From assembly GCA_903891325.1 (NCBI GenBank), contig CAITEC010000059.1, forward strand, positions 1-36,618: 36,618 nucleotides of DNA, read 5' to 3'. Positions within the stretch are counted from its first letter, which is position 1; every line of letters starts with the position of its first letter. Below, piece by piece: positions 9,868 to 19,632 of the stretch. Under the pieces are notes generated by a model, which was not told where the DNA came from, ran no database searches, and saw only the letters and a program-made list of their open reading frames with translations. This stretch comes from an uncultured Opitutaceae bacterium (lineage in GTDB: Bacteria; Verrucomicrobiota; Verrucomicrobiia; Opitutales; Opitutaceae). Position numbers and translations under genes: made by a program.

Positions 9868-12495
9868 ATGGTCGCCTGGGTCGCCAAACTTACCCGACGG
9901 AACAGCTCTGTCGTCTGGGGTGTTATCCTTATCCTCGGCATTGTCGCGGGCATTTTTGGGGAGTTGGCGGCGGATGAGAACCAGGCTTCGGGCCTCGCCG
10001 CGCAGGCCCTGCACGCGAGCGCGGCCCTGCCGGCGGACGCCATCGGCGCACTCACCGGCACGTCCGCCGACGCGTCCAGCCCGAACCTGACGCTCGTCAG
10101 GGAACGGCTCGCGCTTCTCCAGACCTTCATCCCTGACGCCCACCTGCTCTTCATCGTTCGCGTGGACCCGGCGACGGGGAAGGTCGCCTATCTCGCGGAC
10201 TCCGGAAAGCCGGGCTCGGGTGGCCTCCTGCCCGGCGACACCTATGCGAACGCGGCGCTCCTGCCCGCGCTCAAGCGGGTGACCGCAACCAATATCCCCT
10301 CCGCACAGGGCCCGGTGTCGGATGTGGCGGGAACCTGGGCCATGGGTTTTGCGCCGATCACCGGCGGATCGGCCGTCGGCGAGGTGCTCGGGGTTGACGT
10401 GGCGGCCTCGGCCTGGACGCGGTCGGCCTGGATGCGCGGGTTCCACGACGCCCTCTACACCTGGCTGATCCTGGGCCTGCCCTTCGGGATCCTCCGCGAG
10501 ATGCGCGGGCGCGGGGAGCAGCGCAAGGCGATCCGGAACCTGCTGGGCGCGATCGAGCAGAGCCATTCCGCGGTGATGATCATCGACCTGGACAACTGCA
10601 TCGAGTACGTGAACGCGAGCCTGTGCGAGCAGGTCGGCTACACGCGCCGCGAGCTCCTGGGCCGGCCGTGGCGCGACTTCCAGCAGCCCGAGACGCCGGC
10701 GGAGCGGCTGGCCGACATGTCGGCCGCCGTGCGGTCCGGCAATTCCTGGCGCGGGGAGTGGTTCAACCGCCGGCGCAACGGAGAGATATTCCCCGTCCGC
10801 GGCGTCCTTTCCCCCGTGCGCGACCGCGACGGGAGGATGACCTGCTTCGTCGCGGTGTTCGAGGACATGACCGAGCTCAAGCGGAGCGAGGCCGCGCTCC
10901 TGGCGGCGCTCGGCCGCGCGGAGGCGGGGGACCGGGCGAAGAGCCAGTTCCTCGCGACCATGAGCCACGAGGTCCGTACGCCCCTCAACGGCATCGTCGG
11001 GTTCACAAGCCTCCTCCTCGGGATGCCGCTGACCCCGGAGCAGGACGAGTACATCCAGATCATCCGGTCCAACGGGGAGGCGCTGATCCAGCTCACCGGG
11101 GACATCCTCGACTTCGCGCACATCGAGTCCGGCAGCCTGAAACTCGAGCCAAAGCCCTGCAGCCCCCGGGTCTTCGTCGAGGCCACCTTGGACCTGCTGG
11201 CGGTGCAGGCCGCGGCCAAGAAGATCGAGCTGGTCCACTGGGTGGACGACTCGGTGCCCGCGTTGATCGTCGTCGACGAGGCCCGCGTCCGGCAGGTCCT
11301 CGTCAATCTTGCCGGCAACGCCGTCAAGTTCACCGAGGAGGGCGAGGTCGGGATCACCGTCCGCGCCGAGCCCAGGGACGGGGATGAGTCCGGCCGCAAC
11401 TGGCTCCTCACCTTCACGGTCCGCGACACGGGAATCGGGATCGCCCCCGAGGACCACGCGAAGCTCTTCAAGCCCTTCAACCAGGTCGACGTGTCGGACA
11501 CGCGGCGGCACGGGGGCACCGGGCTCGGCCTGGCGATCTCGAAGAACCTGGTCGAGATGATGGGCGGAAGCATCGCGGTTGACAGCGGCGCGGGCCGTGG
11601 GTCGGCATTCACCTTCGTCCTTCCGGTTGTCGCCGAGGCGGTCCCGGCGCGGGCAATCCCCGACCTGACGGGGATCCGGGTCGCGCTTGTGGCCAGGCCG
11701 GGCCCCTTCCGCCGCGAGTTTGCGCAGCTGGCGCGGCGCTGGGGCGTCCAGCTCGCCGAGCTGGAGAAGTGCGCGGACCTCGTGCGCTGCAAGAGGGACC
11801 TCACCTTCATCGAGGTCCACCCCAAGCTCGCCCAGTGCCTGGCGGCCCAGCCCGGCGAGACGCCGGACCCCGCCTGCGAGCTCGAGACCGGCTTCGTCAG
11901 CGGCGTGGACGGCCGGCAGTTTCCCTGGCTTCCCGAGAGCACCTACGCGATCGTCCCGATAACGCTCGCGCGGGAGCTGCGCTCCGCCATGCGCGGCAGC
12001 TTCGCGCACCTCATCAACAAGCCCCTGCACCACGAGGCGATGACCGACCTGGTTTCCGGCGCAAGGGCGGCCGCGGCGCCCGAGGACCGCCCGTCCCGCT
12101 TCGAGCTGAACATCCTTGTCGCGGAGGACAACGCGATCAACCAGCGCCTGGTCCAGAAGCTCCTGTGGAACCTCGGCTGCACGTCGATTCTCGTCGAGAA
12201 CGGCCGCGCGGCAATCGACGAGCTGAGCCGGGCCGCCGAGCACTACAACCTGGTCCTGATGGACCTGCACATGCCCGAGGTCGACGGCCTCGAGGCCATC
12301 CAGAAGATCCGGGCCGGCGAGGCCGGCGGCCGCGCGAAGGGGCTCTGGATCGCCGCGCTGACCGCCGACGCGCGCGGCGAGCAGAAGGAACGCGTCATGG
12401 CGGCCGGCGGCAACGACTACATAGTAAAGCCCATCAAGCTCGGTGAGCTCGCCGACGCGCTGCGGCGCTACCAGGCGGCGGCGAAGCTGCTATAG
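9868..12495 (+). CDS. Hybrid sensor histidine kinase/response regulator
   Basis: 875 aa membrane sensor. A helix at about residues 10-31 and a second at about 197-210 flank a ~165-residue periplasmic sensor region with no recognised fold. A PAS domain follows (about 228-350, HSAVMIIDLDN...). HisKA carries the phospho-acceptor His367 (SHEVRTPLNG). The HATPase domain has the N box NLAGNAVKFT and G boxes DTGIGIA and GGTGLGLAI. A region at about 605-740 looks like a decayed receiver without the phospho-acceptor Asp. A genuine receiver (about 745-872) follows, with AEDNAIN, Asp799 in LMDLHMPEVDG, and the IVKP lysine. There is no output domain, so a partner regulator must lie elsewhere. Its stop overlaps the convergent NagB-fusion stop by 6 bp. 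Confidence 0.94.
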   Translation: MVAWVAKLTRRNSSVVWGVILILGIVAGIFGELAADENQASGLAAQALHASAALPADAIGALTGTSADASSPNLTLVRERLALLQTFIPDAHLLFIVRVDPATGKVAYLADSGKPGSGGLLPGDTYANAALLPALKRVTATNIPSAQGPVSDVAGTWAMGFAPITGGSAVGEVLGVDVAASAWTRSAWMRGFHDALYTWLILGLPFGILREMRGRGEQRKAIRNLLGAIEQSHSAVMIIDLDNCIEYVNASLCEQVGYTRRELLGRPWRDFQQPETPAERLADMSAAVRSGNSWRGEWFNRRRNGEIFPVRGVLSPVRDRDGRMTCFVAVFEDMTELKRSEAALLAALGRAEAGDRAKSQFLATMSHEVRTPLNGIVGFTSLLLGMPLTPEQDEYIQIIRSNGEALIQLTGDILDFAHIESGSLKLEPKPCSPRVFVEATLDLLAVQAAAKKIELVHWVDDSVPALIVVDEARVRQVLVNLAGNAVKFTEEGEVGITVRAEPRDGDESGRNWLLTFTVRDTGIGIAPEDHAKLFKPFNQVDVSDTRRHGGTGLGLAISKNLVEMMGGSIAVDSGAGRGSAFTFVLPVVAEAVPARAIPDLTGIRVALVARPGPFRREFAQLARRWGVQLAELEKCADLVRCKRDLTFIEVHPKLAQCLAAQPGETPDPACELETGFVSGVDGRQFPWLPESTYAIVPITLARELRSAMRGSFAHLINKPLHHEAMTDLVSGARAAAAPEDRPSRFELNILVAEDNAINQRLVQKLLWNLGCTSILVENGRAAIDELSRAAEHYNLVLMDLHMPEVDGLEAIQKIRAGEAGGRAKGLWIAALTADARGEQKERVMAAGGNDYIVKPIKLGELADALRRYQAAAKLL

Positions 12496-14457
12496 GGGCG
12501 CCAGCCGGACAAAGTCGTCCGGTGCGTAGCGCTTGAACGCCTCGATGGCCTCGTACTCGGCCAGCCCGAGCGAGTTGTAGGCCTGCGCCAGCCTGCGGCC
12601 GCGGTCCTCGGAGCGTTCCCAGAATTCGCTCCGCTCCTTGCCGATGAACAGGGACTGGTCCTTCTGGGTCTGGTGGCGGAAGATCGCCCGCCTGCGGCGG
12701 AGCACCTCGACGGGGCTGAGCGGCACGGCCATGTCGATCTCGGCGAGCGGCCACTCGGCCCAGGCGCCACGGTAGAGCCACAGCTCGGCCTCCTGCAGCC
12801 AGGGTTCCCCCGCGGCGCGCGCCAGCGCCTCGCGCAGGACGCGCAGGCAGAGCCGGTGGGTGCCGTGCGGATCGTCCAGGTCGCCGGCCGCGTAGATCAG
12901 GTGGGGGCGCAGGTCCATCAGCAGCCGGTGAACGGCCGCGATGTCGGCCTCCCCGATCCGGCGCGTCCGCGGGGACGCGCTCGCATAGAAGGGCAGGTCG
13001 AGGAAATGCAGCCGGCCCGAGGGCACGCCGCAGACCCGCGCGGCCGAGGTCGCCTCGTGCCGGCGGATGAGCGCCTTCCATCGATGGATGTCGGGGGACC
13101 CGGGCAGCGCCCCCGCGGTGTCGTAGCCCCGGCACAGGTCGGAGATCGCGTCGGCGGCGCCGGGCTGGGCGAGCCCGGCGTCGCGGGTGAACGCGAGCGC
13201 CCGCCAGACCGCCTCGTCGCCCACCGCGGTGGCGCCCGAGACCTCGTAGGCGACGTGCACCTCGTGGCCCTGGTCGACCAGCCTGCAGAGCGTTCCGCCC
13301 ATGGAGATGACGTCGTCGTCGGGATGGGGGGAAAGGACGAGGGCCCGCTTCGGGTAGACCCCCGCCGACGCGGCGCGGAGCGGCCGCACGAGCGCGTCCC
13401 CGGGCCGGGTGCGCTGGGGGTCGCGCCCCCCCGGCCATCCGGTGATCGTGTGCTGAAGCTGGTAGAACCCGGCGAGGTTGGCCTCGTAGGCGGAGCCATA
13501 GACGCGGAGGAGATCCTGGAGCCCGGCCTCGTTGTAGTCGTCGTCGGTCAGCTTGAGGATCGCCTTTTCGCAGCGCTGCGAGAGCCAGAGGATGGCGCGG
13601 CGGGTCATCCGCTCGTCCCACGACAGGCCCTGCTCCGTGAGGGGGCCGAGCTGCCAGGGGGCCCTGTACCGGGTCAGCTCCCCGGCGGCGGCCTGGTCGA
13701 GGACGAACACGGCGTTGTCGTGCTCCTGGAGGAAGGAGGCGGGAACCTGGGCCGAGCACTCGCCCTCGATCGCGGTGCGCACGATGTCCGCCTTGTGCTG
13801 GCCCCACGCCATCAGGACGATTCGCCGCGCCGACAGGATCGTCCGCACGCCCATGCCGAGCGCAAAATGGGGGGTCGCGTCGTCGCCGCCGAAGTCGCCG
13901 GCCGCGTCCCGCCGCGTCAGCGGATCGAGGGCCACGAGCCGGGTGATCGAGCGCAGGGAGCTGCCCGGTTCGTTGAAGCCGATGTGTCCGGTGCGCCCGA
14001 TCCCCAGTATCTGGAAGTCGATCCCACCGGCCGCGCGGATCTCCTCCTCGAAGGCCCCGCAGTAGGCGTCCACGCGCCCCTTCGGCACGGTCCCGTCCGG
14101 CACATGGACCTGGCCGGGCGGGATGTCCACCGCGTCGAACAGGTGCACCCGCATGAAGTGGCTGTAGCTCTGCAGGTGCGCCGGGCTGATCGGGTAGTAC
14201 TCGTCGAGGTTGAAGGTCACGACGTTTGCAAAGCTCAGGCCCTCCTCCCGGTGGAGCCGGACCAGCTCGGCGTAGAGGCTGACCGGGGTCGACCCTGTTG
14301 CCAGCCCGAGGACGGCCTTTCGCCCCGCCCGCTGGCGGGACCGGATCAGCTCGGCGATCTCGGAGGCGACGCAGTGGGAGGCCTCAAGGCTGCTCCCGAA
14401 CGCGGCTATCCGTGCGTGCTCGAAGCGTGCGGACGGCAGGACGTGGGGGGCGATCAT
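12490..14457 (-). CDS. Glucosamine-6-phosphate deaminase fused to PIG-L family domain
   Basis: 655 aa two-domain cytoplasmic protein. Residues ~1-270 are NagB-like (glucosamine-6-P to fructose-6-P and ammonia), with LGLATGSTP, FNLDEYYPI, HVPDG and GIGRTGHIGFNEPGS. The C-terminal half is a PIG-L/LmbE domain with a canonical LSPHPDDDVISMGGT zinc motif and DPHGTHR as second site. The same fusion is known in Bacteroidetes and relatives. The ATG at 14457 is preferred over 14484 because GGAG lies 9 nt upstream; either would do. The gene probably serves amino-sugar catabolism, the PIG-L part perhaps deacetylating the substrate, which is an inference. Confidence 0.92.
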   Translation of the reverse strand: MIAPHVLPSARFEHARIAAFGSSLEASHCVASEIAELIRSRQRAGRKAVLGLATGSTPVSLYAELVRLHREEGLSFANVVTFNLDEYYPISPAHLQSYSHFMRVHLFDAVDIPPGQVHVPDGTVPKGRVDAYCGAFEEEIRAAGGIDFQILGIGRTGHIGFNEPGSSLRSITRLVALDPLTRRDAAGDFGGDDATPHFALGMGVRTILSARRIVLMAWGQHKADIVRTAIEGECSAQVPASFLQEHDNAVFVLDQAAAGELTRYRAPWQLGPLTEQGLSWDERMTRRAILWLSQRCEKAILKLTDDDYNEAGLQDLLRVYGSAYEANLAGFYQLQHTITGWPGGRDPQRTRPGDALVRPLRAASAGVYPKRALVLSPHPDDDVISMGGTLCRLVDQGHEVHVAYEVSGATAVGDEAVWRALAFTRDAGLAQPGAADAISDLCRGYDTAGALPGSPDIHRWKALIRRHEATSAARVCGVPSGRLHFLDLPFYASASPRTRRIGEADIAAVHRLLMDLRPHLIYAAGDLDDPHGTHRLCLRVLREALARAAGEPWLQEAELWLYRGAWAEWPLAEIDMAVPLSPVEVLRRRRAIFRHQTQKDQSLFIGKERSEFWERSEDRGRRLAQAYNSLGLAEYEAIEAFKRYAPDDFVRLAPL

Positions 14458-14547
14458 GACGTGGTTCTCCGGTGATCTATGCATAAAAACGCGCGCGAAT
14501 GAAATGAATTGTATCAATCGCCCCGGCCGGGCATTCCTTGGGCAACG

Positions 14548-15036
14548 ATGAAGGGCATTCCGATCCTCCCCCGGTCCCTCGCCCTTGCCGCCTGCCTTGC
14601 CGCAGGCTGCTCGCATCTGGACCTCACTCCCCAGGACGACCCGGACCGCGTTCTCGACGGGACGGTTGAGTTCAGCACCGGAGCGGCCGACCTGCCGGAC
14701 GACGCGGTGGTGCAGGTGCGCGTGGTCGATGCGGTCGCCCCGTCGACCCGGACGCTTGTGACGGCCGCCGACCCGACGATGAAGCGGCCGGTCCCCCCCC
14801 CGGACATGCCGGCCGAGGTCCTGGGCGAACAGACGATACGCCATCCGTCCACCTATCCGATCCCCTTCCACGTCGAGTACCGCGCCGAGGCCGACCAGCT
14901 CAGGCACGGGCTGAATGTCGAGGCCAGGGTGTCCTACGGCGGCAGGGTGCGCTTCGTGAACCTGGACCACTACGCGATCGGGCTCAACGACTACACCGAG
15001 CCAAAGCTCATCCGCGTGGAGCCGTCCGGGCGCTGA
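14548..15036 (+). CDS. YbaY/YscW-like lipoprotein
   Basis: 162 aa. The N-terminus is a lipoprotein signal with lipobox LAAGC, putting the lipidated Cys at about residue 22. The mature part has the pattern of the YbaY/YscW beta-sandwich family: a start strand GTVEFSTGAADLPDDAVVQVRVVDA, then IPFHVEYRAEADQLRHGLNVEARVSYGGRVRF. It is anchored in the outer or inner membrane facing the periplasm. Function is unknown; the type III lipoprotein YscW is a pilot protein, but no secretion genes are present. Transcription is divergent from the NagB fusion. Confidence 0.75.
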   Translation: MKGIPILPRSLALAACLAAGCSHLDLTPQDDPDRVLDGTVEFSTGAADLPDDAVVQVRVVDAVAPSTRTLVTAADPTMKRPVPPPDMPAEVLGEQTIRHPSTYPIPFHVEYRAEADQLRHGLNVEARVSYGGRVRFVNLDHYAIGLNDYTEPKLIRVEPSGR

Positions 15037-15129
15037 AAAAACGCCGGGATTGCAAAATGGTGGCATCCGGGCGAGGGTCCCGCGCGTAGTTACCCCCGAA
15101 ACTTAAACCCAACCCGATATCACCACACT

Positions 15130-15483
15130 ATGAAACGATCGACCCGCCTCCTTGTCACCGCCGCCGCCGCCGCCGGGCTCTATGCCGGGGCGTTTGCCGC
15201 GCGCAGCTTCGCCGACGAAACCACCACGGGCTCCGGCTCGACGACCGCCACCGCCAAGGCCAAGAATTCCTGCAAGGGGCAGAACTCCTGCAAGGGTCAG
15301 GGGGGCTGCAAGGCAGGCGACAACGGCTGCGCCGGGAAGAACTCCTGCAAGGGCCATGGCGGCTGCGCGGGAACCGGCTCGTGCAAGAGCGAGGCGTCCT
15401 GCAAGAGCAAGAGCTCCTGCAAGGGCAAGGACGGCTGCACGACCAAGGCCTCCTGCAAGAGCACGGCCAAGCCGAACGCCTGA
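15130..15483 (+). CDS. Cys-rich bufferin-type RiPP precursor (BufA2-like)
   Basis: 117 aa. A Sec signal peptide (MKRSTRLLVTAAAAAGLYAG..., cleavage around residue 24-29) is followed by a Thr/Ser linker, then a core with 11 Cys at residues 48, 54, 60, 67, 73, 79, 85, 91, 97, 103 and 109. All spacings are six residues except one of seven, with units like CKGQNS, CKGQGG and CKSEAS. This is an 18-bp repeat at DNA level. Immediately downstream are a DUF692/MNIO enzyme and a DUF2063 protein, the gene set that modifies Cys in periplasmic copper-binding bufferins. The call as precursor rests on this context plus composition. No Shine-Dalgarno sequence is seen. The gene is followed by a strong terminator, so the precursor mRNA is probably the main transcript. 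Confidence 0.85.
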   Translation: MKRSTRLLVTAAAAAGLYAGAFAARSFADETTTGSGSTTATAKAKNSCKGQNSCKGQGGCKAGDNGCAGKNSCKGHGGCAGTGSCKSEASCKSKSSCKGKDGCTTKASCKSTAKPNA

Positions 15484-15497
15484 TTCCTATTTGAGCG

Positions 15498-15534
15498 GCG
15501 CGGGCGGCGGTATTCCGCCGCCCGCGCTTTTTTT
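15498..15534 (+). terminator. Perfect intrinsic terminator between precursor and maturase genes
   Basis: A perfect 13-bp stem has left arm GCGCGGGCGGCGG at 15498-15510, loop TATT, and right arm at 15515-15527, followed by seven T (15528-15534). The next base is the A of the maturase ATG (15535). This is a textbook Rho-independent terminator inside the operon, 14 bp after the precursor stop. It should strongly reduce transcription into the downstream genes and leaves no room for a ribosome binding site outside the stem. Confidence 0.92.
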
Positions 15535-16383
15535 ATGCCCGCCAACCGCTTCAACGGTCACACCGACCACGGGATCGGGATCGGCCTCCGGGTGCCGCAC
15601 TACGCGCATATCCTGGAGAAGAAGCCGGTGGTCGGGTGGTTTGAGATCATCTCCGAGAACTTCATGGTGGACGGGGGCCGCCCCCTGGAGATCCTCGACC
15701 GGATCCTCGAGCAGTACCACGTCGTCCAGCACGGCGTCTCGATGTACTTCGGATCAGCGGACAAGCCCGACCGGGCGCACCTGAGGAAGCTGAAGGAGCT
15801 CGTCCGGAGGACGCACACTCCCTGGATCTCCGACCATCTTTGCTGGGGCAGCGTGGACGGCACCTACTCCCACGACCTGCTCCCGATGCCCTACACCTTC
15901 GCGGCCGCGCGGCGGACCGCCGAGAAGATCCGGCAGGTCCGCGATTACCTCGGGATCCCCGTCTGCGTTGAGAACGTGAGCAGCTACGCGGAGTTTCACG
16001 CCTCCGAGATGACCGAGTGGGAATTCCTTTCGGAGGTGGTCGAAGGGGCCGACTGCGGCATCCTTCTCGACGTAAACAATATCTACGTCTCGTCGAAGAA
16101 CCACGGTTTCAATCCCTACGACTACCTCAACGGGGTCCCGGCGGAGCGCGTCGGGCAGATCCACATCGCCGGCCACACCAAATTTGAGAAGTACATCCTG
16201 GATACGCACGACCACCCGGTCCTGGACCCGGTGTGGAGGCTGTACGACCATGCCACCCGACGGTGCGGGGTCACGGCCACGCTGCTCGAGTGGGACGACC
16301 GGATTCCCTCCTTCGACGAGGTCCACGCCGAGGCGCTGAAGGCGGGGAAGTTCATCGCGGCGGCGCGGAAGGCATCCCGATGA
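15535..16383 (+). CDS. MNIO (DUF692) bufferin maturase, BufB-like
   Basis: 282 aa TIM-barrel enzyme of the multinuclear non-heme iron-dependent oxidative family (DUF692). Family members oxidatively modify Cys residues of a peptide precursor, for instance to thiooxazole-type rings in bufferins. Probable iron-site and family motifs are GIGLR (16-19), SENF with Glu41, QHGVSM with His66, SDHLCW with Asp100 and His101, VENVSSY with Glu146, LLDVNN with Asp179, HIAGH with His210 and His214, DTHDHP (223-228), and LLEWD with Glu252. There is no signal peptide, so it acts in the cytoplasm before export. The ATG directly follows the T-tract of the terminator; the next in-frame ATG is far inside the barrel, so this start is the only reasonable one. 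Its stop overlaps the next start by 4 bp. Confidence 0.93.
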   Translation: MPANRFNGHTDHGIGIGLRVPHYAHILEKKPVVGWFEIISENFMVDGGRPLEILDRILEQYHVVQHGVSMYFGSADKPDRAHLRKLKELVRRTHTPWISDHLCWGSVDGTYSHDLLPMPYTFAAARRTAEKIRQVRDYLGIPVCVENVSSYAEFHASEMTEWEFLSEVVEGADCGILLDVNNIYVSSKNHGFNPYDYLNGVPAERVGQIHIAGHTKFEKYILDTHDHPVLDPVWRLYDHATRRCGVTATLLEWDDRIPSFDEVHAEALKAGKFIAAARKASR

Positions 16384-17303
16384 AGACCGCCCGCGCCCAG
16401 GCGAGCGCCGTGCGCCGCCCATCCCGCGTGGGGTCCACCGCCGAGCTGCGCGCATTCCAGCGGACCATGCTCCGGGCGCTCATCCAGCCGCTCGGCCCGG
16501 ACGACGGACCGCAGGAGAGGGGGGTCGACGGGCGCCCGATGGCCGAGGTCGCCGCCTCGTTCATCAAGCCGAACGCGCGCCTGGATTCGCTTGAGCGGCT
16601 GGAGATCTACCACCGGATGTACTGGTGGCGCCTGATCGACTGCGTGGTCGAGGACTGCCCCGGGCTGGCCGCTCTCCTCGGCAACGACGCCCTCGACCGG
16701 CTGGTCCGCGCCTACCTGGCAAAGTATCCGTCGCGCTCCTTCACCCTCCGCAATCTCTGCTCGCGGCTGCCGCGGTTCATCGCCGAGGAACCGCGCTGGA
16801 CCGCCCCCCGCAGCGCGCCTGCGCTCGATGTCGCCCGGTTCGAGTGGGCGCAGACGGTGGCCTACGACGCCGAGGAGCGCCCCCTTCTCGGGCCCGCGGA
16901 GATCGCGGGGGTCCCGCCGGCGCGGCTCAGGCTCACGCTCCAGCCGCACCTCTCGCTCCTGGCGCTGGGGTGCACCGCCGATGAATTTGTGTACTCCGTG
17001 CGGCGGCGCTCGGCGCTCCGCGCCGAGGCGAGCAACGCGCCCGAGGCCCCCGGCCGCGGAAGGCGGCAAACGCGGCGCCCGCCCGCGCCGGGAAGGAAGC
17101 GCGTCTGCGTGGCAGTCTTCCGCGTGAAGGGCAACCTGCGCCACCTGCGGCTCGAGCCCGCGGCCTTCAGGATCCTCGAGGCGATCCGCGCCGGCCTGCC
17201 CCTCGAGCGTGCAATCGCCGCCGGTGGACGGGTGAAGCCGGGGCAAATTGAGGATTGGTTTGCCATGTGGATGAAGTTGGGGTGGTTTTGCAGGAGCCCC
17301 TGA
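16380..17303 (+). CDS. DUF2063/BufC-like partner protein of the maturase
   Basis: 307 aa, translationally coupled to the MNIO gene (ATGA overlap). The N-terminal ~150 residues match the DUF2063 (HvfC/BufC N-terminal) domain: FQRTMLRALI, a disordered gap, RLEIYHRMYWWRLIDCVVEDCPGLAALLG and YPSRSFTLRNL. Family members bind the precursor leader and deliver it to the MNIO enzyme. The C-terminal part, after a Pro/Arg-rich insert (about residues 212-240), looks like the winged RRE-like region of related proteins (LEPAAFRILEAIRAG). Cytoplasmic. The N-terminal ~20 residues are basic and probably unstructured. Confidence 0.9.
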   Translation: MKTARAQASAVRRPSRVGSTAELRAFQRTMLRALIQPLGPDDGPQERGVDGRPMAEVAASFIKPNARLDSLERLEIYHRMYWWRLIDCVVEDCPGLAALLGNDALDRLVRAYLAKYPSRSFTLRNLCSRLPRFIAEEPRWTAPRSAPALDVARFEWAQTVAYDAEERPLLGPAEIAGVPPARLRLTLQPHLSLLALGCTADEFVYSVRRRSALRAEASNAPEAPGRGRRQTRRPPAPGRKRVCVAVFRVKGNLRHLRLEPAAFRILEAIRAGLPLERAIAAGGRVKPGQIEDWFAMWMKLGWFCRSP

Positions 17304-17305
17304 TA

Positions 17306-17343
17306 TATAGGTCCTATAGGACCTATAGGACCTATACTTTTTT
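17306..17343 (+). terminator. Hairpin of 10-bp repeats with T-tract, before doxX
   Basis: Starts 2 bp after the DUF2063 stop. Arms TATAGGTCC (17306-17314) and GGACCTATA (a tandem pair at 17319-17327 and 17328-17336) allow two alternative 9-bp stems. The outer one is followed directly by C and six T (17338-17343). The core is a 9-10 bp tandem repeat. It could terminate or attenuate transcription into doxX. Confidence 0.6.
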
Positions 17344-17375
17344 GGCCCGAGCCCGCTTTGGATACCGCTTTTGAT

Positions 17376-17846
17376 ATGATCCCCAAACTAAATCACACTC
17401 TCGCCCTCATCGGCGACCGGCTCCAGCCGGTCCTTCTCCTCGGCATCCGCCTCTACTGGGGATACCACTTCGTCCAGACGGGAACCAGCAAGCTGACCAA
17501 CTCGGCCGGATTTGTGGGGCATTTCCAGGACTGGGGGGTGCCGCTGCCGCACCTGAGCGTCATCTTGGCGGGCACCACCGAGACCGTGGGCGGGCTGCTT
17601 CTCCTCCTTGGCCTCCTGTCGCGCATCATCGCTGTGCCGCTCATGTTCACGATGGCGGTCGCCTACCTGACGGCGGAGCGGCAAACGCTCATGACGCTCT
17701 TCAGCAACCCCGACGACTTCGTGAGCGCGACGCCCTTCCTTTTCCTGCTGGCCGCGCTGATTGTCTTTGTCTTCGGCCCGGGCCGCTACTCGGTGGACGC
17801 CCTTCTCGCCCGCAAACGGGCGTCCGGACGGCGCCCCCGCTCGTAA
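17376..17846 (+). CDS. DoxX family membrane protein
   Basis: 156 aa inner-membrane protein with about four helices (LLGIRLYWGYHFVQTGTSKL, VILAGTTETVGGLLLLLGLLSRIIAVPLMFTMAVAYL, PFLFLLAALIVFVFGPGRYSVDALL), matching DoxX. The family motifs (tGxxKL near residue 35, E...GG..L...GL..R in the second helix) are present. DoxX proteins are frequent last members of bufferin operons, where they may help redox or precursor handling; that role is not proven. A TTG at 17358 is possible, but the ATG at 17376 is chosen. The secreted thioredoxin-like gene starts 10 bp after its stop. Confidence 0.88.
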   Translation: MIPKLNHTLALIGDRLQPVLLLGIRLYWGYHFVQTGTSKLTNSAGFVGHFQDWGVPLPHLSVILAGTTETVGGLLLLLGLLSRIIAVPLMFTMAVAYLTAERQTLMTLFSNPDDFVSATPFLFLLAALIVFVFGPGRYSVDALLARKRASGRRPRS

Positions 17847-17856
17847 CAGGGGGCGG

Positions 17857-19632
17857 ATGAACCTCCGCCGCCTCGCCGTCCTCGCGTCCGTTTTCGCCTC
17901 CTGCCTCGCGGCGTCCGGGGCTGAGTCCGTCTCGTGGCAGCCATGGTCCGACGCCGCGTTCGCTCGGGCCCGGGCGGAACACAAGTATGTGCTCCTCGAC
18001 CTCGAGGCGGTGTGGTGCCACTGGTGCCACGTCATGGACGCGACCACCTATCGCGATCCGGCGGTCGCGGCGCTGATCGGCGGCCGTTACGTGGCCATCC
18101 GCGTGGACCAGGACTCCCGGCCCGACCTCGCGAACCGCTATGAGGACTACGGCTGGCCCGCCACCGTGATCTACGGGCCCGACGGCACGGAGATCGTGAA
18201 GAAGCGGGGGTACATTGATCCCCCGGGGATGGCCGGGCTGCTGCGGGCGGTGATCGCCGATCCCTCTCCCGTGGATTACGGCGACAACCCGCCCGAGCCG
18301 CCGGCGGCGGGGCCGTCCGCGCTCGATGCCGGCGGCCGCGCCGCGCTCACCGGGCAGTGGCTCGGGGGCTATGACGCGAGGGCGGGGGGATGGGGCTTCG
18401 TGCACAAGTACCTGGACTGGGACTGCGTTGAGCTCGCAATGCGGGACGCGGCGCTCGGCGACGCGGCCGCGGCCGGCCGGGCCCGCGACACGCTGCGGCT
18501 TGAGCGCAGGCTCCTCGACCCGGTCTTCGGGGGCGTCTACCAGTATTCGGCGGGAGGGGACTGGGATGAGCCCCACTTCGAGAAGATCATGCAGATGCAG
18601 GCGGAGAACCTGCGGATCGCCTCGATGGCCTGGGCGCAATTCGGGGATCCGGATGACCGGAAGACCGCCCGCCTCATCCACGGCTACCTCCGAAAATTTC
18701 TCACCAGCCCGGATGGCGCCTTCTTCACGAGCCAGGACGCCGACCTGGCGTCCGGCGAGCCCGGGGCGGCCTATTATGCCCTCGATGCGGCGGGGAGGTG
18801 GCGCATGGGAGCCCCGCGAATCGACACGCATGTCTACGCCCGCGAGAACGGATGGGCGATAGCGGCGCTCGCGTCCCTTGCCGCGGCCACGGGCGACGCC
18901 GCCGCGCGGGGGGAGGCCGTGGCCGCCGCGCGGTGGATCGTGGCCCATCGGGGGCTGCCGGGCGGCGGATTTCGGCACGATGAGCGGGATCCGGCGGGAC
19001 CCTACCTGGCCGACACGCTGGAGATGGGGAGGGCCTTCCTTGCGCTTCACCAGGTCACGGCGGATCCTTACTGGCTGCGGCTGGCGACGGGCGCGGCCGG
19101 ATTCATCGGCGCGCACTTCAGCCGGCGGGGCGTCCCCGGTTTTGCCACGGCCGACACGACGGGATCAGCGTTTCCCGCACCCCGCCCGGAGTTTGACGAG
19201 AACGTGGCCGTCGCCCGCTTTGCCCGGGCGCTCCTCGAGGAGACGGGCCGGGACGAGTACCGGGTCATGGCCGCAAATGCGCTCCGCTGGCTGGTCGCGC
19301 CGGCTGTGACCGGCAACCGCGGCTTCGCTGTTGCCGGCCTGCTCCTCGCGGAGGACGAGGCGCGGACCGACCCGCTCCACGTCGCGATCATCGGCCGGAA
19401 GGACGACCCGGTGGCGCGCTCTCTCTTCGAGACGGCGCTGCGCGCCCCGACCGGCCACAAGCTGATCGAGTGGTGGGATCCGCGGACGGAGCCGGCCCCG
19501 CGCGGCGAGGACATCTACCCTCGGTTTCCCCGCGCGGCCGCGTTCGTCTGCTCGAACGGGACCTGCTCCTCGCCGATCTTCACAGCCAAGGCGCTGGCGG
19601 CAAGGCTTCGTCCGGCAGCTGCGCCGTACTAG
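17857..19632 (+). CDS. Secreted DUF255 (YyaL/SSP411-like) thioredoxin-fold protein
   Basis: 591 aa. A Sec signal peptide (MNLRRLAVLASVFASCLAASGA) precedes a thioredoxin-like domain with the family motif WCHWCHVM at about residues 53-60 (a CxxC pair), VDQDSRPD and WPATVIYGPDG. The rest is the (alpha/alpha) toroid of DUF255 proteins, with GGVYQYSAGGDWDEPHFEKIMQMQAENL, SQDADLASGEPG and ENVAVARFARALL. Many homologues are cytoplasmic; this one is exported. It is only 10 bp after doxX and so belongs to the bufferin operon, suggesting a disulfide or Cys-handling role for the exported peptide, which is an inference. A Cys pair in CSNGTCSS near the C-terminus is notable. Confidence 0.88.
   Translation: MNLRRLAVLASVFASCLAASGAESVSWQPWSDAAFARARAEHKYVLLDLEAVWCHWCHVMDATTYRDPAVAALIGGRYVAIRVDQDSRPDLANRYEDYGWPATVIYGPDGTEIVKKRGYIDPPGMAGLLRAVIADPSPVDYGDNPPEPPAAGPSALDAGGRAALTGQWLGGYDARAGGWGFVHKYLDWDCVELAMRDAALGDAAAAGRARDTLRLERRLLDPVFGGVYQYSAGGDWDEPHFEKIMQMQAENLRIASMAWAQFGDPDDRKTARLIHGYLRKFLTSPDGAFFTSQDADLASGEPGAAYYALDAAGRWRMGAPRIDTHVYARENGWAIAALASLAAATGDAAARGEAVAAARWIVAHRGLPGGGFRHDERDPAGPYLADTLEMGRAFLALHQVTADPYWLRLATGAAGFIGAHFSRRGVPGFATADTTGSAFPAPRPEFDENVAVARFARALLEETGRDEYRVMAANALRWLVAPAVTGNRGFAVAGLLLAEDEARTDPLHVAIIGRKDDPVARSLFETALRAPTGHKLIEWWDPRTEPAPRGEDIYPRFPRAAAFVCSNGTCSSPIFTAKALAARLRPAAAPY

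Follow-up and report, generated by a model that had tools for sequence, protein, structure and literature searches.

The stretch of DNA analysed here, referred to as the window, is the 36,618-nucleotide contig CAITEC010000059.1 (C59 in our numbering) of an uncultured Opitutaceae bacterium, whose 3.29 Mb genome is 94.7% complete and contains a single match to the MNIO (DUF692) family. On its plus strand the window encodes a bufferin-type operon in the order precursor, MNIO maturase, DUF2063 partner and DoxX-family protein, with a DUF255 gene close behind. The bufA-like precursor of 117 amino acids with 11 Cys is an open reading frame (ORF) at 15130..15483 and gives a match below the cut-off to the NCBIfam model BufA2 (NF050166). 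It is followed by the bufB-like maturase of 282 amino acids (15535..16383; PF05114, 349.8 bits; NCBIfam BufB NF050167, 344.3 bits, cut-off 310) and by the bufC-like DUF2063 gene (16380..17303; PF09836, 56.8 bits, cut-off 27.2), the start of which overlaps the MNIO stop. The HvfX-like DoxX membrane protein (17376..17846) matches PF07681 with 70.2 bits and NCBIfam HvfX with 76.3 bits, below the cut-off of 80; its ORF opens at TTG 17358 and ends with the stop at 17846, the ATG at 17376 being the likelier start. A terminator-like hairpin of 13 bp with a loop of four and seven T (15498..15534) abuts the MNIO start codon, and a second, A+T-rich one, built from 9-bp TATAGGACC repeats followed by T, lies between the DUF2063 and DoxX genes (17306..17336). 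The DUF255/thioredoxin-like gene (591 amino acids, 17857..19632; PF03190, 92.5 bits) is possibly co-transcribed with the operon and lies outside its core.

For comparison, 143 distinct MNIO loci were assembled, after merging identical MNIO stretches, from 80 named genome contigs and, within the family, from individual loci and sequence stretches of its genomes. Where the sequence around the MNIO gene was long enough, a DUF2063 relative was found 3' of it in 118 of 121 loci, the window counted, and a DoxX relative in 70 of 86, in 63 of these downstream on the same strand. Of the 66 further loci of sufficient length, the window left out, 10 have a DUF255 relative downstream in the same orientation.

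The precursor begins with a hydrophobic segment (15130..15213) that, judged by inspection, is plausibly a Sec-type signal with its cleavage site likely after ...ARSFA; the segment is conserved in the alignment. Behind it, the 11 Cys are spaced by gaps of 6, 6, 7, 6, 6, 6, 6, 6, 6 and 6 residues. When 11 Cys were distributed randomly over the last 73 residues, nine six-residue gaps occurred in 0 of 200,000 trials, the maximum being six. The first six Cys, the gap of seven included, form the common Buf2 module with gaps 6,6,7,6,6 (Cys48 to Cys79; 15271..15366), which was aligned with 34 relatives, and a C-terminal extension (15367..15483) adds five further Cys in six-residue steps. The BufA2 match spans residues 11-77 and leaves this tail outside. 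Lys directly follows 8 of the 11 Cys, 4 of the 5 tail Cys among them.

We assign the operon to the Buf2/BufA2-type bufferins of the Cys-Lys group, because of the BufB and BufA2 profile matches, of Asp255 in the MNIO and of the Lys after 8 of 11 Cys. According to PMC13097082, the MNIO site facing the Lys after Cys is BufB2-Asp251, with Asp in Cys-Lys enzymes and Phe in EGKCG enzymes. Asp255 of the window MNIO occupies the likely equivalent site, an assignment based on a motif match and on a weak HMMER alignment (9.4 bits) to 3bww, which has Phe at this place, rather than on an alignment to BufB2 or FonB themselves. The motif was found in 139 of the 143 MNIOs, and 132 of these have Asp at the matched position; across the loci, Lys comes after 702 of the ladder Cys, which number at least 905.

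These results confirm the observation made in a sequence-only reading of this DNA and support its interpretation in part. The gene order is confirmed by the PF05114, PF09836 and PF07681 matches, the ladder with its single gap of seven by the ORF and the random placement, and the bufferin type can be sharpened to the Buf2/BufA2 Cys-Lys group with an MNIO above the BufB cut-off. The reading had also placed eleven Cys beyond the best-known precursors, which does not hold, as Antoine et al. (PMC12452194) give 6 or 12 conserved Cys for Buf2 precursors, up to 58 for EGKCG proteins and 1-18 for other MNIO precursors. The operon is real and of a kind already well described, with a precursor whose lengthening is specific to the lineage; a single 11-Cys ladder is a modest finding.

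Ladder length across the family

Among the 143 loci, the 6,6,7,6,6 module occurs without extension in 77 and with extension in 25; it was not seen in 41, of which 26 show mixed spacing, eight have six-residue gaps only and seven gave no ladder, some of them at contig ends. Cys behind the module were found in only four of the 25 extended loci, namely the window, L110, L132 and L199 (L132 and L199 also carry Cys in front), while L026, L064 and L079 have one extra N-terminal, lipobox-like Cys each. All nine readable genus-mates of the window have six Cys and no tail; a tenth is cut by a contig end, and two further genomes of the genus have neither precursor nor MNIO gene. More than six Cys occur in 36 of 72 loci of the family (range 3-14) vs 2 of 63 outside it. 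These counts drop by rule a first Cys resembling a lipobox or signal Cys and omit eight of the 143 loci (L043, L045, L051, L086, L098, L109, L203 and L204) with contig ends, no ladder or distant MNIOs. The comparison of unit numbers in related genomes, which the sequence-only reading had proposed, thus finds variable ladders, and the eleven Cys of the window are one instance of a family-wide change in ladder length, not an exception within the family.

The enzyme varies far less. The MNIOs of L103 and L190 are identical in 270 of 274 residues (791 of 822 bases) and stand beside ladders of 11 and 6 Cys, and the MNIO of the window is up to 89% identical to that of a relative. An MNIO tree of 73 rows implies at least 12 changes between the three states (six, extended, no module); it was built quickly, leaves 38 of its 70 inner branches open and gives no support to the placing of the window among six-Cys neighbours. 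The comparison supports the view that six-residue units have been gained and lost in the family while the MNIO appears hardly to change.

The same reading took the 18-bp DNA repeat of the ladder as a sign of expansion by unit duplication. The periodicity itself is present, and a change of unit number is backed by the genome comparison; as evidence of duplication the repeat fails. Neither the synonymous-codon identity (p 0.38) nor the identity at lag 18 (p 0.27) exceeded the values obtained by re-dealing the ladder's own codons; a null drawn from the codon usage of four neighbouring genes gave p of about 0.02 for both measures. In thirteen hand-picked relatives, mostly with long ladders, neither null was exceeded (smallest p 0.15; in the case of L197 the script covered 139 codons, beyond the ladder). 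We rejected the repeat as proof of recent duplication, since the own-codon null yields equal identity; therefore the units are old or their codons have been scrambled since. A probable ladder expansion is inferred from genome comparison only.

Ladders also keep company with the enzyme. Homologous ladders in genomes without MNIO genes, which the reading had named as evidence against its view, did not emerge: 54 of 55 BufA2-positive family genomes are MNIO-positive as well. The remaining one, G243, is 81% complete, and its BufA2 match stops 92 bases before a contig end. Two family genomes hold second, distant MNIOs, L203 (G180:C106) and L204 (G153:C13), which are 28% and 31% identical to that of the window; the frame upstream of L204 ends in a Gly/Ser/Cys-rich stretch.

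Hairpins and an ECF-type promoter

The hairpin between precursor and MNIO gene is conserved in the family. The RNA fold of 15484-15545 has a z of -3.92, and hairpins by a fixed rule were found at this place in 65 of 135 loci vs 54 of 2,700 mononucleotide shuffles, 58 of 72 loci belonging to the family and 7 of 63 to the others. Stretches of the same length within the MNIO gene gave hairpins in 0 of 72. In 51 family stems, G-C, C-G and A-T forms occur at each of ten outer positions, a compensation that is partly built in, as the hairpin search itself demands pairing. In some relatives (L205, L269, L270), DoxX is preceded by an ECF-type promoter of its own.

Upstream of bufA, 44 of 72 family loci and 0 of 59 loci outside the family share the motif GGGAATA-N15-17-CTC followed by Y-N-A, mostly about 100 bases before the bufA start (93-148). 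We read it as a promoter for an extracytoplasmic function (ECF) sigma factor. Of 32 ECF loci with high scores, 22 show a looser form, GG-N-AATA-N15-17-CTC, at a distance of 35-42 bases upstream of the ECF gene; the strict form was found in 2 of the 32, and the looser form in 5 of 1,600 shuffles. Orthologs of this ECF factor (at least 200 bits) are present in 64 of 74 bufferin genomes vs 54 of 178 others, relatedness being ignored. By eye, an ECF gene was noted 1.4-1.8 kb downstream of the MNIO gene, in the same orientation, at no fewer than seven loci from six family genomes (G004, G024, G034, G049, G058 and, twice, G066). G066 has two bufferin MNIO loci, L098 and L110, each followed at about 1.5 kb by an ECF sigma gene.

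The pattern GGGAATA-N15-17-CTCYYAY has 0-3 sites each in six genomes and at least one site in 130 of 252 genomes; a reversed control pattern matched about 22 of the 252 by our own count of the table. Right behind it, relatives encode the ECF sigma factor with a likely anti-sigma factor, DoxX, MsrA, MsrB, MsrP (MsrB and MsrP at one scanned site each) and AhpC/TSA redoxins, and further sites precede DUF2911 or sigma-70 genes or nothing clear. This survey covers 37 loci, three of them without an ORF, and several of the 34 ORFs are in the wrong frame or doubtful; of the 34 proteins, a hand-picked set of 14 was compared with family models, L259 (NCBIfam only) giving no match. The sharing of the promoter in relatives points to a possible envelope oxidation response at least as much as to copper induction.

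The window itself has a degenerate copy, GGGCGAG...CCCCCGA (15069..15103, plus strand), where relatives show GGGAATA-N16-CTCYYAY. Its best score is -2.1, compared with at least 13.1 (median 26.8) for the 50 family sites from which the matrix was built. Upstream, a small gene at 14509-15036 matches a YscW-type lipoprotein (42.4 bits), and on the minus strand a single 858-aa frame (12490-15066) combines domains of glucosamine-6-phosphate isomerase and PIG-L deacetylase.

Proposed function and rival explanations

We propose that the precursor is probably made in excess: the hairpin behind its gene would halt many transcripts, and such partial termination would favour precursor over enzyme. By analogy to characterised systems, the MNIO and its DUF2063 partner would oxidise the Cys, mostly in Cys-Lys pairs, most likely to 5-thiooxazoles, before Sec export; 5-thiooxazole is installed in all characterised MNIO-PME1 cases (PMC13097082). 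Modification of every ladder Cys is plausible. In the periplasm the peptide would hold copper and possibly further soft metals or oxidants, with DoxX in a putative supporting role in the membrane and the number of units presumably setting the metal capacity of each peptide. Chemistry and copper binding are attributed to the window peptide by analogy; what the analysis itself establishes is the homology, the order of the genes, the make-up of the ladder from module and tail, the varying number of units, the conservation of the hairpin and, in relatives, the promoter link. Taken as a whole this explanation appears quite probable to us.

Several observations weigh against it or against the promoter link. 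The precursor reaches 37.7 bits with BufA2, below the cut-off of 60. Since this cut-off is reached in 0 of the 252 family genomes searched, those with six Cys included, the shortfall looks like a limit of the NCBIfam model rather than a mark of the window gene. AlphaFold2 gave no fold for the precursor (window plus 34 homologues hand-picked from 76 listed; mean pLDDT 47.2); the sole helix of at least four residues in this poor model, residues 6-26, lies within the putative signal segment. Sequence searches with P0001 and P0003 matched no solved structure. The promoter link is burdened by the 22 of 72 family loci without GGGAATA, the window among them. Across bufferin genomes, motif and sigma gene are not significantly linked (Fisher p 0.27), as GGGAATA is lacking in five and present in five genomes without a sigma ortholog and lacking in 17 and present in 45 with one. 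For the window genome, the degenerate promoter is joined by the lack of a sigma factor match at E 1e-15, in a genome whose 94.7% completeness leaves a gap that could hide one; the operon may be expressed in some other way here, or not at all.

The regulatory data bear on a different role, in which the Cys ladder, modified or not, would mainly consume periplasmic oxidants such as hypochlorous acid, with copper being secondary. The bufA promoter of relatives also precedes MsrA, MsrB, MsrP, AhpC/TSA redoxin and sigma genes, and the hypochlorite response of H. influenzae includes an ECF factor that governs msrAB and reportedly affects a DoxX/DUF2063 cluster (PMC7907618). Thiooxazole peptides of relatives do, however, bind copper (PMC13097082), and the promoter copy of the window is degenerate. 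In Caulobacter, chromate and cadmium induced the sigma-F targets, whereas peroxides, paraquat and diamide did not (PMC3511200). We consider a mainly oxidant-consuming ladder unlikely. The same promoter defect, together with the missing sigma ortholog, would fit an operon that is losing regulation and use in the window genome, its tail a neutral accretion. All four reading frames are nevertheless intact, with an MNIO up to 89% identical to a relative's, a strong hairpin and the six-residue step kept in nine of ten gaps, and GGGAATA is missing from 21 other family loci as well; decay of this kind strikes us as very unlikely.

The extent of modification could also be smaller, with the enzyme acting on the six-Cys module only and the five tail Cys left as free thiols or disulfides in a metallothionein-like tail. 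The tail does lie beyond the conserved module and the BufA2 match and is missing in the readable genus-mates. Lys nonetheless follows 4 of its 5 Cys, as in most of the module, and MNIOs of the same family adjoin ladders that have no module, which makes a module-only enzyme less likely; we regard partial modification as distinctly improbable.

Keeping to a Buf2-type bufferin with a modified ladder, we can venture a wider proposal, which as a joint statement is tentative and falls somewhat short of being probable. Opitutaceae Buf2 precursors would be open-ended hexapeptide ladders of 3-14 Cys, sometimes of pure CKGKDG-type units with no module, whose length varies freely beside a near-fixed MNIO pair and tunes metal capacity. 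The operon would belong to an undescribed ECF regulon of periplasmic oxidation repair (MsrA, MsrB, MsrP, redoxins, DoxX); the lineage of the window would have acquired a C-terminal extension of its own and would have left this regulon. The parts that deserve follow-up are the variation of the ladder throughout the family, next to an almost invariant enzyme, and the link through the promoter. Near-identical MNIOs beside unequal ladders are natural pairs with which stepwise enzyme action along repeats, as well as the scaling of copper capacity with Cys number, becomes testable, and the ECF promoter offers a concrete hypothesis for the inducer of Buf2 operons. Literature searches, read as listings apart from passages of PMC12452194, PMC13097082, PMC8692599, PMC3511200, PMC7907618 and PMC8315932, turned up no report of variable-length Opitutaceae Buf2 ladders or of the GGGAATA promoter, although the supplement of PMC12452194 may well include some of the proteins.

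Comparison with known systems

The closest known relatives are the Buf2/BufA2 bufferins (BUF_6/12Cys, NF050166; Cys-Lys captophorins), with which the window shares the likely signal segment, the six-Cys module with its Cys-Lys-Gly contexts, the order precursor-MNIO-DUF2063-DoxX and a BufB-type MNIO in which Asp occupies the likely Cys-Lys site. It differs from them by 11 instead of 6 or 12 Cys, five of which sit in the C-terminal tail, and by a precursor profile score under the curated cut-off, as in the whole family. The Buf_EGKCG, oxazolin and fontiphorin systems resemble it in their exported, repeat-built, many-Cys precursors of variable length and in the MNIO and DUF2063 pair (PMC12452194, PMC13097082). 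Their repeat, however, is EGKCG, with Lys before Cys, and their reported residue at the enzyme site is Phe, whereas the window MNIO has Asp; membership in the EGKCG/oxazolin group was rejected, as reading the precursor sequence revealed no EGKCG motif.

On the regulatory side, sigma genes are reported in Buf1, not Buf2, clusters in the excerpts of PMC12452194. The Caulobacter Buf1 (DUF2282) system under sigma-F has the same gene set, and its ECF control extends to a YedY-type protein and, as far as the excerpts of PMC3511200 go, not to msrA. It is distinguished by a DUF2282 precursor with four conserved Cys and by the sigma-F/NrsF pair, while the Opitutaceae sigma gene, for which no counterpart was found in the window genome, was found via its promoter and is classed here no further than as ECF-type.

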